Part shown: piece by piece, positions 16,795-22,885 of the stretch
Layout: each line of letters starts with the position of its first letter
Position numbering within the stretch: the stretch's first letter is position 1
NCBI RefSeq assembly: GCF_000583655.1
Contig: NZ_BAKI01000010.1
Coordinates: 1 to 64,000 of the forward strand
DNA from: Lentilactobacillus farraginis DSM 18382 = JCM 14108
Lineage (GTDB): Bacteria > Bacillota > Bacilli > Lactobacillales > Lactobacillaceae
Reading direction: 5' to 3'
Length of the DNA stretch: 64,000 bases
Program-made: the position numbers and the translations under genes
Notes under the pieces: model-generated
Database searches by the model: none
The model's input: only the letters and a program-made list of their open reading frames with translations
Told to the model about the DNA's origin: nothing

Positions 16795-16833
16795 AAAAGG
16801 CTGGCATCAGGACTTCTTCCTGCCCAGCTTTTT
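16795..16833 (+). terminator. Intrinsic terminator after the Ppx/GppA gene
   Basis: AAAAGGCTGG pairs with CCAGCTTTTT (one bulged G), with an inner CAGGA/TCCTG stem, and ends in a T-run. Confidence 0.85.
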
Positions 16834-16865: not shown

Positions 16866-18134
16866 ATGGATTCTCAGTGGGCGCATTTCTACCAAAAAAC
16901 CTATCAGCAGCGACGAGAAATGCTCGCTGAATTTGCGGGCCTGAGTCAGGCTGAAACAGCGGCCTTGAAAAGCGAAAACAAGCCGATCTTTAATCATTTG
17001 ATCGAAAATTATTTAACAGACTACGCACTGCCGGAAGGTATTGCCACTAATCTCAAGGTAAACGGCCGCCGGTACCTGGTACCAATGGTTACGGAAGAGC
17101 CATCGGTAATCGCGGCTGCCAGTAACGGCAGCAAGTTGTTGGCGGCTGGCGACGGCATTGCAGCTAAAATCGACCAGCGGCTTTTAACCGGTCAAATAAT
17201 CCTTAAAGACGTGGCTGATAAAAATGAACTAACCAGACTGATTACGGATTACCAATCTCAGTTGATTAAAATTGCCAATGATAGTCATCCCCAAATTTTA
17301 AAGCACGGCGGCGGTGCAAGGTCGCTTTCGCTTCGGCAGCTGGATGAGCAGTTTTTCTCGATTGATTTAACTGTTGATCCCGGTGAAGCAATGGGTGCCA
17401 ATTTAATGAATACAATGCTGGAAGCAGTCGCTGATTATTTGCGATCGCTGGCTTTTCAGGTAACAATGGCTATTCTTTCCAACATTGCTGATAAAAGTTT
17501 GGTGACGGTGACGGGAAAAGTTGCGTTTGACCAGTTGGGTGCATCAGCAGTGATTGGAAAGAAAACCGCCGAAAGAATTGTCGATGCCGCTACGGTGGCC
17601 CAGTTGGATCCAAAGCGGGCTGTTACTCATAATAAAGGCATTATGAATGGGGTTGACGCGGTTGTTATGGCTACCGGTAATGATTGGCGGGCTGTTGAAA
17701 GCGCGGCTCATGCTTTTGCCGCACGGAATGGCCGTTATAAAGGGTTAAGTACTTGGAAGCTTGAAGACCATTACCTGGTCGGCCAAATGACACTACCGTT
17801 GTCTTTGGGAATCGTTGGTGGTGCTACCAGCGTTTTACCGCTTGCGGCAGTGAATAAAAAGATGATGCAGGTCAATCACGTCCAGACATTAATGGCGGTG
17901 ACTGCGGCACTTGGACTGGCTCAGAATTTAGCAGCTCTAAAAGCGTTGGTTACTGACGGCATTCAAAAAGGGCATATGAACTTACAATTACGTTCTTTAG
18001 CAATGGCTAACGGTGCTGTGGAAGCTGAATTGCCGGCAGTGGTTGCCCGCTTGCGGCAAATGCCGCGGCCAAGTGCCCAAGCTGTTCGGCAGATTCTTAA
18101 AGAATTACGAAAGAAGGATAACAGTAATGGATAA
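16866..18134 (+). CDS. mvaA: Hydroxymethylglutaryl-CoA reductase, class II
   Basis: This enzyme makes mevalonate from HMG-CoA, the committed step of the mevalonate isoprenoid route used by lactobacilli. The 422-residue soluble class II enzyme shows the catalytic Glu in VTEEPSVIAAASNG. The Lys/Asp region reads THNKGIMNGVDAVVMATGND. The C-terminal half contains SLGIVGGATSVLPLA. Its 3' end overlaps the next gene by 8 bases, so the two are translationally coupled. Mevalonate made here would feed the polyprenyl synthase at 10.7 kb and undecaprenol for the cell wall. Confidence 0.96.
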   Translation: MDSQWAHFYQKTYQQRREMLAEFAGLSQAETAALKSENKPIFNHLIENYLTDYALPEGIATNLKVNGRRYLVPMVTEEPSVIAAASNGSKLLAAGDGIAAKIDQRLLTGQIILKDVADKNELTRLITDYQSQLIKIANDSHPQILKHGGGARSLSLRQLDEQFFSIDLTVDPGEAMGANLMNTMLEAVADYLRSLAFQVTMAILSNIADKSLVTVTGKVAFDQLGASAVIGKKTAERIVDAATVAQLDPKRAVTHNKGIMNGVDAVVMATGNDWRAVESAAHAFAARNGRYKGLSTWKLEDHYLVGQMTLPLSLGIVGGATSVLPLAAVNKKMMQVNHVQTLMAVTAALGLAQNLAALKALVTDGIQKGHMNLQLRSLAMANGAVEAELPAVVARLRQMPRPSAQAVRQILKELRKKDNSNG

Positions 18135-19098
18135 CGAAATTAATATCGAATTAAATGACCAGGTTCACAGTCTAATTGATGCAGTAAATCATTTTTTCCC
18201 AGGGACTGTCACCGTCACCTTTTTAGGAAAGCTACAAGCCGGATACGTTCGGCATGATCAATCCCAGGTCGTTCAAGACGGCAAGAATGTAATTGTTCAG
18301 ATTGCGGACCTCAGCGCGCCTAATTACACGGCTTCCCATGAATTACTGCACCTGCTGATGGTTTTGAGAGGTTTTCCCCAGGTCTTCTTCTCGTTAACAA
18401 CTGGTAATGCCGATTTGGATGATCAGCTTAAAATGATGGGAACCGAGTTATATGATATCGTCTCTCACTTTGTTGTTGTTTCTGAACAGCGCAAGCATGG
18501 ATTGATTGATGACGATATTGAGGAAATGTATTTAAAGGGGGTTTACGCGACTATTAAACCGGAACCGGATCCCTTGGATGATCAAATGACGCTTCGGTTA
18601 ATGACTTTATTGGATGCAATGGTCTTTTATGGCGATAAATTTGATCAGGTTGCCGATAAATTAAAAAAGGACTTTCCGGTTTCGCTTGCGGCAGCCGAAA
18701 AGCTCTATCAGGTGATTACCAAAAAGCCGACTGATTCACCGTTTGGTTTGCGGCGAAACGTTATCAAATTGTTCAAAGCCTTTGATGAACAATTGAAACA
18801 GTGGGAATTGCCGCCACTTCATAATACCGAATTTACAACGTTAACCAGTGTTCTTTCAAAACGACAGCTTAATTTACAAGTAAAGCAGTTATTTGAAGTT
18901 TTTCATTCCGAACTGATTGAAATCAACAGTAATACCCGGGCCTATGTCGGGTTTAATCGGGTGGACGATCAAAATTCGTTCGTATTGGCAAATCCAAAGG
19001 GCGAACAGGATAATCCCGAATTTTTTAAAGAAATTTATGGAAAAACCGTTAAAGAACTGTTCGACAGCCTGAAAATGCCCTATATTGAACGTGAGTAG
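18127..19098 (+). CDS. Uncharacterised protein with HELLH zincin-like motif
   Basis: I do not recognise a characterised function; similar lactobacillus proteins are, from memory, labelled IpaB/EvcA family. The 323-residue protein has no signal peptide or membrane helix. Residues 71-75 read H-E-L-L-H within NYTASHELLHLLMVLRGFP, preceded by a predicted hydrophobic strand. This is the canonical zinc metallopeptidase core. A possible third ligand is the Glu of MGTELYDIVSHF about 30 residues later. The C-terminal half is helical and charged and ends KELFDSLKMPYIERE. The ATG overlaps the mvaA stop by 8 bases. A sirtuin gene follows after 24 bases, so it sits in an mvaA-zincin-sir2-DUF72 run. Protease activity is an inference from the motif. 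Confidence 0.7.
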   Translation: MDNEINIELNDQVHSLIDAVNHFFPGTVTVTFLGKLQAGYVRHDQSQVVQDGKNVIVQIADLSAPNYTASHELLHLLMVLRGFPQVFFSLTTGNADLDDQLKMMGTELYDIVSHFVVVSEQRKHGLIDDDIEEMYLKGVYATIKPEPDPLDDQMTLRLMTLLDAMVFYGDKFDQVADKLKKDFPVSLAAAEKLYQVITKKPTDSPFGLRRNVIKLFKAFDEQLKQWELPPLHNTEFTTLTSVLSKRQLNLQVKQLFEVFHSELIEINSNTRAYVGFNRVDDQNSFVLANPKGEQDNPEFFKEIYGKTVKELFDSLKMPYIERE

Positions 19099-19122: not shown

Positions 19123-19839
19123 ATGATTGATCAAGAAATTCAAACATTGTTTGATAACGCGAAAAAGATTGTTTTCCTGACGGGAGCCGGTGTTTCAACC
19201 GCGTCCGGAATCCCGGATTACCGTTCAAAAAACGGGTTATATACAAACGATAAATCGGATAAACCGGCTGAATATTATTTAAGCGCTGAATGTCTGCGTG
19301 ACGAACCCAAGGTTTTTTATCAGTATGAAAAGTCCAACATGTATTATCCTGATGCCAAGCCCAATGTCATTCATGAACGACAGGCTGCTTTCACTCGGGA
19401 GCGGGATGCGGTTGTTGTCACGCAAAATATCGATAGCCTTTATCGAAAGGCAAATACCGAAAATCTTGTTGAATTTCACGGGAATTTGTACAACGTTTAT
19501 TGTCAAAAATGTCGAAAAAAAGTGGACTATCGTGAGTATCTGAAGAGTATGTATCATCGCAATTGTGGTGGGATCCTAAGACCTGACATCGTGCTTTACG
19601 GGGAAGGATTAAATCCAAGTGCGATTTCTCAAAGTATTCAAGCAGTTTCGAAAGCCGATTTGATCGTCATTGTCGGCACATCGATGCGCGTTTATCCATT
19701 TGCCGGTTTGATTGACTATCGAAGCGAAAATGCCCATGTTTTGGCAATTAATGAGGAACAGCTGAGCTTCACATTTCCGTTTACGATGATTAAAGAGAAC
19801 GCAGTTGACTTCTTTAACGATCTAAAAGTCAACGCTTAA
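19123..19839 (+). CDS. Sir2-family NAD-dependent protein deacylase
   Basis: Sirtuins remove acyl groups from lysines using NAD+. The 238-residue protein has the NAD motif FLTGAGVSTASGIPDYRS, TQNIDSLYRKA and the catalytic His in EFHGNLYNVYC. A GTSMRVYPF segment lies further on. The zinc site reads C-x2-C (YCQKC), then YHRNCGG, so the third ligand position is His (residue 145) instead of the usual Cys. ATG 19123 is preceded by AAGGGAGTGG; an in-frame GTG nine bases earlier overlaps that site. Co-location with HMG-CoA reductase may link it to acyl-CoA metabolism, but that is only a guess. Confidence 0.9.
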   Translation: MIDQEIQTLFDNAKKIVFLTGAGVSTASGIPDYRSKNGLYTNDKSDKPAEYYLSAECLRDEPKVFYQYEKSNMYYPDAKPNVIHERQAAFTRERDAVVVTQNIDSLYRKANTENLVEFHGNLYNVYCQKCRKKVDYREYLKSMYHRNCGGILRPDIVLYGEGLNPSAISQSIQAVSKADLIVIVGTSMRVYPFAGLIDYRSENAHVLAINEEQLSFTFPFTMIKENAVDFFNDLKVNA

Positions 19840-19871: not shown

Positions 19872-20720
19872 ATGATCACGATAGGCTTGACCACTTTTTC
19901 AGAGCATCCCGCGTTGATTGATCATGCCAAACGCAAAGTTCGGTTATCGGAATATAGTGCCCATTTTCCGGTTGTTGAATTGGATACGCCGTTTTATGCC
20001 ATTCCTAAAACGACAGTCATTCAGCATTGGCAGCAGCAGGTACCGGATAACTTTCAATTTATCTTGAAAGCAAATCGGGTCATGACAATGCACGATCAGG
20101 GGACGGATAATCCCGTGGGCGGCGAAGAGCGGTTGTCTGAATTTAAAGCTTACAAGCGGGCAGTGGCACCGCTTGTGGCAGCAGGGCAGCTGAAAACCAT
20201 TCTCTTTCAGTTTCCGCCATATTTTGCCAGGAAGGTCGAAACAATCGAGTATCTTCGGCGGATTCGGACACTGATGGCGGGATATCCGATTTCGGTAGAG
20301 TTTCGGAATCCATCATGGTACGGGGCAGGAATTTCAAATGATGTGGCCGATTATTTCAGGGAACTTGGTTTGGATCTGGTCATTGCTGACGAGCCGCACA
20401 CCACTAATATGGGGGTGCCTTTCGAGCCGGTGGTTACCAGCAAGCAGCTCTGCATGCTGCGGCTTCACGGCCGAAACATTAAGGGATGGACGGACACTAC
20501 CGGTGATTGGCGTCGTAAACGCACGCTGTATCGGTATTCGACAGAAGAACTAATCCAATTAAAGGCGGTTATCCTCAAGCTTCAAAAGCAGACCGATGAA
20601 GTTTGTGTGATTTTCAATAACAATGCCGGCCGGGATGCGGCTGACAACGCGTTAACACTAAAGCAGCTGCTTGGTATTTCCTTCACTGGGCTGTCACCGC
20701 TGCAAATGGACTTATTTTAA
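19872..20720 (+). CDS. DUF72 (YecE-like) TIM-barrel protein
   Basis: DUF72 proteins adopt a TIM-barrel fold; the biochemical role is unknown. The 282-residue protein opens with MITIGLTTFSEH and has VVELDTPFYAIPKTTVIQHW, FILKANRVMTMHDQ, SVEFRNPSWY and LRLHGRNIKGW. It ends with FNNNAGRDAADNALTLKQLL, all matching the family pattern. It has an AGGGTGAGGTG ribosome site and follows sir2 by about 30 bases, so it is probably the last gene of the mvaA transcript. Confidence 0.88.
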   Translation: MITIGLTTFSEHPALIDHAKRKVRLSEYSAHFPVVELDTPFYAIPKTTVIQHWQQQVPDNFQFILKANRVMTMHDQGTDNPVGGEERLSEFKAYKRAVAPLVAAGQLKTILFQFPPYFARKVETIEYLRRIRTLMAGYPISVEFRNPSWYGAGISNDVADYFRELGLDLVIADEPHTTNMGVPFEPVVTSKQLCMLRLHGRNIKGWTDTTGDWRRKRTLYRYSTEELIQLKAVILKLQKQTDEVCVIFNNNAGRDAADNALTLKQLLGISFTGLSPLQMDLF

Positions 20721-20795
20721 AAAATGGCTGGCAAACGGCTGCTTTTTTGGCACAAAGTTTTCCGGCAATTCTCGCATCCCACTACTTTTTTTTGC

Positions 20796-20834: not shown

Positions 20835-22885
<2,051 letters not shown>

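Follow-up and report, generated by a model that had tools for sequence, protein, structure and literature searches.

The analysed window, a 64,000-nucleotide stretch of Lentilactobacillus farraginis DSM 18382 (contig NZ_BAKI01000010.1), carries a run of four genes on its + strand. The run opens with mvaA, encoding HMG-CoA reductase (16866–18134; PF00368, E 3.2e-100; TIGR00532), and continues with an uncharacterised gene, hereafter X (18127–19098, stop included), a sirtuin gene for an NAD-dependent protein deacylase (19123–19839; PF02146, E 2.8e-45; NF001752) and a gene for a DUF72 protein (19872–20720; PF01904, E 4.8e-55). The ATG of X at 18127 precedes the mvaA stop codon (18132–18134), giving an 8 bp overlap, and a ribosome-binding-like AGAAGGA (18112–18118) lies ahead of it within the mvaA 3' end; the X stop is separated from the sirtuin ATG by 24 bp. 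Translation of the ORF gives a 323-aa protein with the motif H71-E-L-L-H75 and without an evident membrane segment (the Kyte-Doolittle mean over 19 residues peaks at 1.41), whose nearest named relatives, in L. hilgardii and L. raoultii, share 93% protein identity. A preliminary description of this DNA had reported the same reading frame and motif, a soluble product, the coupling to mvaA and the sirtuin and DUF72 genes close behind, all of which we confirmed.

Two terminator-like hairpins with U-runs, both on the + strand, may mark the borders of this unit: an upstream one in the gap between ppx and mvaA (16796–16832; −17.1 kcal/mol, z −2.58), missed by our pattern scan, and a downstream one after the DUF72 gene (20718–20749; −9.1 kcal/mol, z −2.27), found by it. 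The scan returned 7 sites in total, no more than in shuffled sequences (mean 8.1), and none of these terminator-like sites fell on the + strand in the spaces separating mvaA, X, the sirtuin gene and the DUF72 gene. Because hairpins flank the run and none lies in its inner gaps, a single mvaA-X-sir2-DUF72 transcript is plausible. Promoter-like matches also occur within X (e.g., 18985–19014), the region holding 16 of them against 11.4 in shuffles, and Rfam gave no match between 14000 and 23000. Elsewhere in the window, the metG ORF stops at 661 aa with an odd tail (22780–22844), while those of close relatives reach 676 aa or longer; a frameshift or an error in sequencing close to the 3' end of metG is possible.

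Gene order was compared across 51 X loci, the window not counted, comprising eight close relatives (L002–L009) and otherwise one to three loci per genus; adjacency meant the same strand and a distance within 600 bp. A sirtuin gene was found downstream of X in 42 of the 51 loci, mvaA upstream in 34 and both in 30. With the eight close relatives set aside, the sirtuin was adjacent in 34/43 loci and mvaA in 26/43, and under a strict next-ORF count the figures were 40/51 and 32/51, respectively. Nine loci had no adjacent sirtuin gene: seven of these genomes gave no SIR2 match, two of the seven being 87% complete, and the other two carry SIR2 elsewhere (G022 and G034). The association of X is tighter with the sirtuin than with mvaA, since most loci without adjacent mvaA keep the sirtuin (12/17) and mvaA is then located elsewhere in the genome (16 of the 17; none in G034). 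Several loci without upstream mvaA instead have divergent ORFs of ~170–190 aa on that side of X (L073, L084, L088, L089, L091, L096, L098–L100, L104 and L105). Judged by eye, these are presumably of the YbhB/PEBP or RibD/DHFR type, and some of the loci carry, after sir2, a small ORF that we take to be chorismate-mutase-like.

X is dispensable for its two neighbours, and the association is not obligatory. SIR2 was present in 20 of 22 X-lacking genomes, which speaks against a joint loss of X and the sirtuin, and HMG-CoA reductase was present in 5/5 X-lacking genomes tested; conversely, 7 of the 39 X-bearing genomes tested gave no SIR2 match. The isoprenoid/deacylase setting proposed in the preliminary description is thus real as a gene order (sirtuin 42/51, mvaA 34/51), but the neighbours persist without X. 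The gene is missing before sir2 in G131, and in L231 (G059:C52) mvaA and sir2 overlap directly with X absent, while the other sampled members of genus g22 mostly have it. Four genomes of genus g29 without X (L222–L225) encode a protein of ~500 aa between mvaA and sir2 (L222, 1535–4835). In the two tested, this insert was a PEP carboxylase (PEPcase_2) and not a diverged X; the one g29 locus tested beyond sir2 has a cation-efflux gene there. Some loci of the NELLK clade also carry an ORF after sir2, namely L083 (4294–5226) and L086, L092 and L095 (305–315 aa), and that of L083 resembles, by eye, a cation-efflux protein.

With the window protein as a single-sequence query, X was matched in 269 of 301 sampled Lactobacillaceae genomes, covering 35/40 genera. 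A profile of 52 members matched 37/295 genomes in an order-level sample, 35 of them in Lactobacillaceae; the other two matches reached 18 bits over ~70 positions inside frames of ~619 aa. At class level, two of 299 genomes matched, namely the window's own genome and one of the weak order-level matches. These three samples make X a near-core gene in Lactobacillaceae; strong relatives were seen in them only within this family. The single-sequence search had left 32 family genomes without a match; applied to 22 of these, the profile gave one match (E 0.003, 30 positions), which we regard as chance. A tblastn search of plasmids with X gave no match, and none of 82 pattern matches in viral contigs was confirmed.

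Consistent with the earlier label "uncharacterised", X received no Pfam, NCBIfam or PHROG assignment. The window protein matched no Pfam family at E up to 1, which includes SprT-like (PF10263), DUF2201_N (PF13203) and the M78 family PF06114, and gave one NCBIfam and one PHROG match, each at E of about 0.2. Among the best 25 of the 36 Pfam families matched by the 52 members, the lowest E was 0.0077, one member matched a phage metallopeptidase family (E 0.015), and PF06114 was absent. Against PHROGs, the best E was 0.0021, and one member matched a "metallo-protease" family at E 0.0073. NCBIfam FlgF, matched by 9 of the 52 members (best E 0.00095), scored far under its cut-off and was dismissed as chance. 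Sequence comparison with the PDB gave a best E of only 0.4, or 0.17 with the profile. We conclude that X is not in PF06114 by the Pfam test but may work like members of that family. Its annotation name is presumably "IpaB/EvcA family protein", and the L. plantarum member would be lp_0448, a guess of ours from the sirtuin being lp_0449. Among the open-licence PMC papers listed, none dealt with X. In L. rhamnosus and L. casei, mvaA is described beside mvaS and a thiolase gene, X being unmentioned in that portion of the article (PMC3928093), and the section of an L. sakei expression table that we consulted lists nothing on it (PMC3146418). Lactobacillaceae, an entire family with uses in food, share a near-core gene to which no function is assigned.

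The HELLH codons (71–75; 18337–18351) fall in a predicted helix spanning residues 65–80 and would supply two zinc-binding histidines and a catalytic glutamate. The motif alone is only mildly meaningful, as HExxH arose in 306 of 20,000 shuffles of X (1.5%); its conservation across members lifts it above chance. The alignment of 52 members, which reach down to ~20% identity, retains H71 in 46 rows, E72 in 51 and H75 in 45. A larger set comprised 111 rows, in which L001 repeats the window and L149 is a broken fragment (G186:C9, where X is interrupted by a stop and its first 50 positions lie on a separate match). Here HExxH was intact in 91 rows and not intact in 20, L149 among them, so the conservation of the motif among homologues, raised as a check in the preliminary description, was largely borne out.

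The same description had suggested a downstream Glu as a further ligand, corresponding to E107 within residues 104–115 (MGTELYDIVSHF). Position 107 is E in only 57 of the 91 intact rows (E or D in 62), whereas H114 is kept in 89 of them, the other two having Asn; E107 is therefore not a conserved ligand and was rejected. H114 (18466–18468) is near-invariant and, by row conservation, the best conserved candidate for the third ligand, although it might also be a transition-state His. The alternative candidate is D98 (18418–18420), present in 81/91 intact rows and replaced by N, S, A or T in the other ten. In M78 peptidases the third zinc ligand is the Glu of an ExxA[ND] motif, some 20–27 residues downstream of HExxH. 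This motif was present in the M78 sequences we compared, and the profile alignment places D98 at its Glu. The metal site of X is only putative, because H114 and E72 outlast the histidines where these are lost and two intact rows have N114.

An AlphaFold2 model of the full length built with nine sequences had a pLDDT of 65.6. Its N-terminal order was a helix, three strands (residues 28–59), the HELLH helix, a strand and a long helix (95–123) on which, in this low-confidence model, both D98 and H114 are located. A Foldseek search of the PDB gave nothing at an E of 0.001 or lower. VIA-align listed 50 rows, among which 27 were zincin peptidases by title (M1, M4, M61, BepA, 6mdw, PprI/IrrE, CapP, abylysin and others) and four were PrpR chains, PrpR ranking first at Z 5.8; the remaining 19 were neither, and many of these were glycosidases aligned to residues 5–84. 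All Z values were below 6, and those for M78 structures were weak on this low-confidence model (PprI 8sln, 3.2; CapP 7t5t, 3.2; IrrE 3dti, 3.0). As judged from the model, the zincin signal lies in the number of zincin rows, each of which is weak. In a viral library, the top match (E 7.4e-6) was uncharacterised, followed by SprT-like (E 0.014) and IrrE N-terminal-like (E 0.1) entries. The C-terminal part folded alone reached a pLDDT of 58.6 and gave only 4 of 200 chains at Z 2 or more; the best of these, an SH2 domain at Z 2.8, was set aside as uninformative.

Profile comparison of residues 1–225 gave a probability of 82% with PF06114 relatives (78% at full length), 39% with DUF2201_N, over 16 columns only, and 11% with SprT. 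Decoys, consisting of three reversed profiles and eight neighbouring families, reached at most 1.3% (1.4% at full length), and the comparison of X with M78 scored 30% when both profiles were reversed. On the same scale, M78 and DUF2201_N matched at 81%, SprT and DUF2201_N at 94%, and M78 and SprT at 18%. The M78 profile was made from 21/22 loci with sequences cut out around [HE]ExxH; 29/30 loci were kept for SprT and 11/12 for DUF2201_N. The M78 match rests mainly on the HELxH segment. The zincin-like fold anticipated in the preliminary description is thus favoured by the predicted N-terminal fold and the many zincin rows, but the model is weak and Z stays below 6. Overall, X is likely to have a zincin fold.

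The zinc site was lost more than once. On a quick tree of 109 rows, with the two His columns removed and L001 and L149 left out, the intact/lost label of HExxH requires five changes, at least three of them being forced by starred branches. One clade of 14 rows has N-E-x-x-K/Q in place of HExxH, and single degenerate rows read REMH, REKH, AETR, HQNN and DEHH at positions 71, 72, 75 and 114. The degenerate genes are not decaying and are under similar purifying selection, because their median dN/dS was 0.048 (5 pairs, three among three related rows) versus 0.046 in intact genes (19 pairs; NG86, pairs 80–98.5% identical) and because residues 63–125 are the best conserved part of the protein (72% in the degenerate clade, 63% in intact comparators). 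They also keep the gene neighbourhood, as well as Q282, Y304, Q247 and D163 in 20/20 rows. Outside the motif, the alignments single out S244, R246, Q247, Q282, Y304 and R322 as near-invariant in the C-terminal part (residues 226–323; 18802–19095), a part modelled with low confidence. Since the zinc site was lost repeatedly without decay, X probably also has a non-protease job. The earlier reading of a cytoplasmic zincin holds as far as the HELLH motif and the zincin-like predicted fold are concerned, but proteolysis alone is not the whole story, given the repeated loss. Such behaviour is unexpected of a purely digestive peptidase and is what one would expect of a scaffold or regulator in which protease activity is optional. 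X is an unclassified zincin-like family, and what is new in it is the repeated, selection-maintained loss of the zinc site; the natural lineages with and without this site offer a test of which part of the zincin matters and which does not.

The distribution of X and its largely intact motif (269/301 genomes; 91/111 rows) would also fit a metallopeptidase with an ordinary housekeeping role in turning over peptides or proteins, whose position between mvaA and the sirtuin gene only reflects a conserved housekeeping run. The genes trpS, ppx, metG, tatD and ksgA are also nearby in many X loci, and linkage therefore does not have to imply a common pathway. This explanation sits poorly with repeated loss of the zinc histidines under similar purifying selection, with the residues outside the motif common to both groups and with the sirtuin still standing next to X in 12 of the 17 loci where mvaA does not, and we regard it as rather unlikely. 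The overlap of the X start with the mvaA stop and the kept gene order (34/51 and 42/51 loci) could instead point to direct action of X on HMG-CoA reductase or the sirtuin, as a protease for processing or quality control or, in degenerate lineages, as an adaptor or chaperone. Yet both partners occur without X, once as a direct mvaA-sir2 pair, 17/51 X loci have no adjacent mvaA, and 7/39 X-bearing genomes tested have no SIR2 match, which makes direct action on the neighbours quite improbable.

Finally, the protein might bind no metal at all, HELLH being there for structural reasons or by chance, and the family might never have been a peptidase. The 1.5% of shuffles that yield HExxH and the weak fold scores agree with this, and 18 of the 20 rows with an incomplete His pair retain E72 and H114, which may mean that the site has a role apart from zinc binding. 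Against this, the deepest members retain H71 and H75, both His are replaced in 17 degenerate rows out of 20 (in two only one is replaced, and one row is the fragment), and the profile match to M78 stands well above the decoys. We therefore consider this reading highly unlikely.

The explanation we prefer, to which we give about an even chance, is that X is a regulatory (pseudo)peptidase resembling IrrE and PrpR. It would be a metallopeptidase in the species of the window and would have a second function that is also conserved. X would be a cytosolic Lactobacillaceae protein whose N-terminal zincin domain (about residues 1–125), nearest to the ImmA/IrrE/PrpR group of M78, is followed by helices and the conserved C-terminal part. 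With the zinc site intact in the window's species, the protein there is most likely zinc-binding and able to cleave: it would bind zinc through H71, H75 and either H114 or D98 and cleave a specific cellular protein, acting as a regulator and not as a digestive peptidase, while its C-terminal part would sense a ligand or hold a partner. Several lineages would have given up the zinc site and kept the rest, much as PrpR lacks the HEXXH of IrrE. Zinc binding, proteolysis, ligand sensing and the target are all things we infer, and the odds that the window protein has protease activity seem to us evenly balanced. We saw neither a DNA-binding domain nor a target.

X may be made together with HMG-CoA reductase and the sirtuin, and its signal or target would probably lie in acyl-CoA or protein-acylation metabolism. 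Passages of the respective reports state that an L. acidophilus sirtuin prefers propionylated substrates (PMC8603916) and that the L. plantarum CobB homologue lp_0449 is induced by oleuropein (PMC6759512); these, together with the PrpR model, suggest to us that X is a zincin or pseudo-zincin with a regulatory role in acyl metabolism. A specific tie of X to HMG-CoA or acylation nevertheless seems doubtful to us. Further still, and decidedly improbable, X could be an acyl-CoA or acylation sensor on an IrrE/PrpR-type scaffold, linking the HMG-CoA (mevalonate) branch to sirtuin-controlled acylation through one operon. If so, it would be a ligand-triggered protease in most lactobacilli and a protease-dead sensor in several lineages, and acetyl-CoA use in the mevalonate branch would be coupled to protein acylation. 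The conserved place of X beside HMG-CoA reductase and a deacylase is a concrete place to look.

Among known systems, DUF2201_N (PF13203) and SprT-like proteins (PF10263) resemble X in the HExxH segment, with the SprT-like match in the viral library and 6mdw in the PDB list as further points in common; the DUF2201_N alignment is confined to its 16 columns, and neither family was matched in Pfam. Like X, where this is predicted, M78/ImmA-IrrE proteins place HExxH in a helix after a set of strands; HEL-H is common to both, and an acidic residue downstream of it in X aligns at the position of the third-ligand Glu. They differ in having E-x-x-A-N/D where X has D98-x-x-L, and X has no Pfam match, possesses a long conserved C-terminal part and has no adjacent gene in the window for a repressor-like partner. 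PrpR/RamB of Mycobacterium tuberculosis provided the top structural rows (Z 5.7–5.8, model residues 10–177). The N-terminal helix-turn-helix domain of PrpR/RamB was not recognised in X (0 Pfam families), the zincin-like part of the X model begins near the N-terminus, identity is 5–6%, and the window protein, unlike PrpR, keeps HExxH. In the passages on its structure (PMC6765138), PrpR is described as an IrrE-like scaffold in which the HEXXH residues are absent and a CoA-binding cavity has a counterpart in IrrE, and this natural lack of HEXXH parallels the degenerate members of X.
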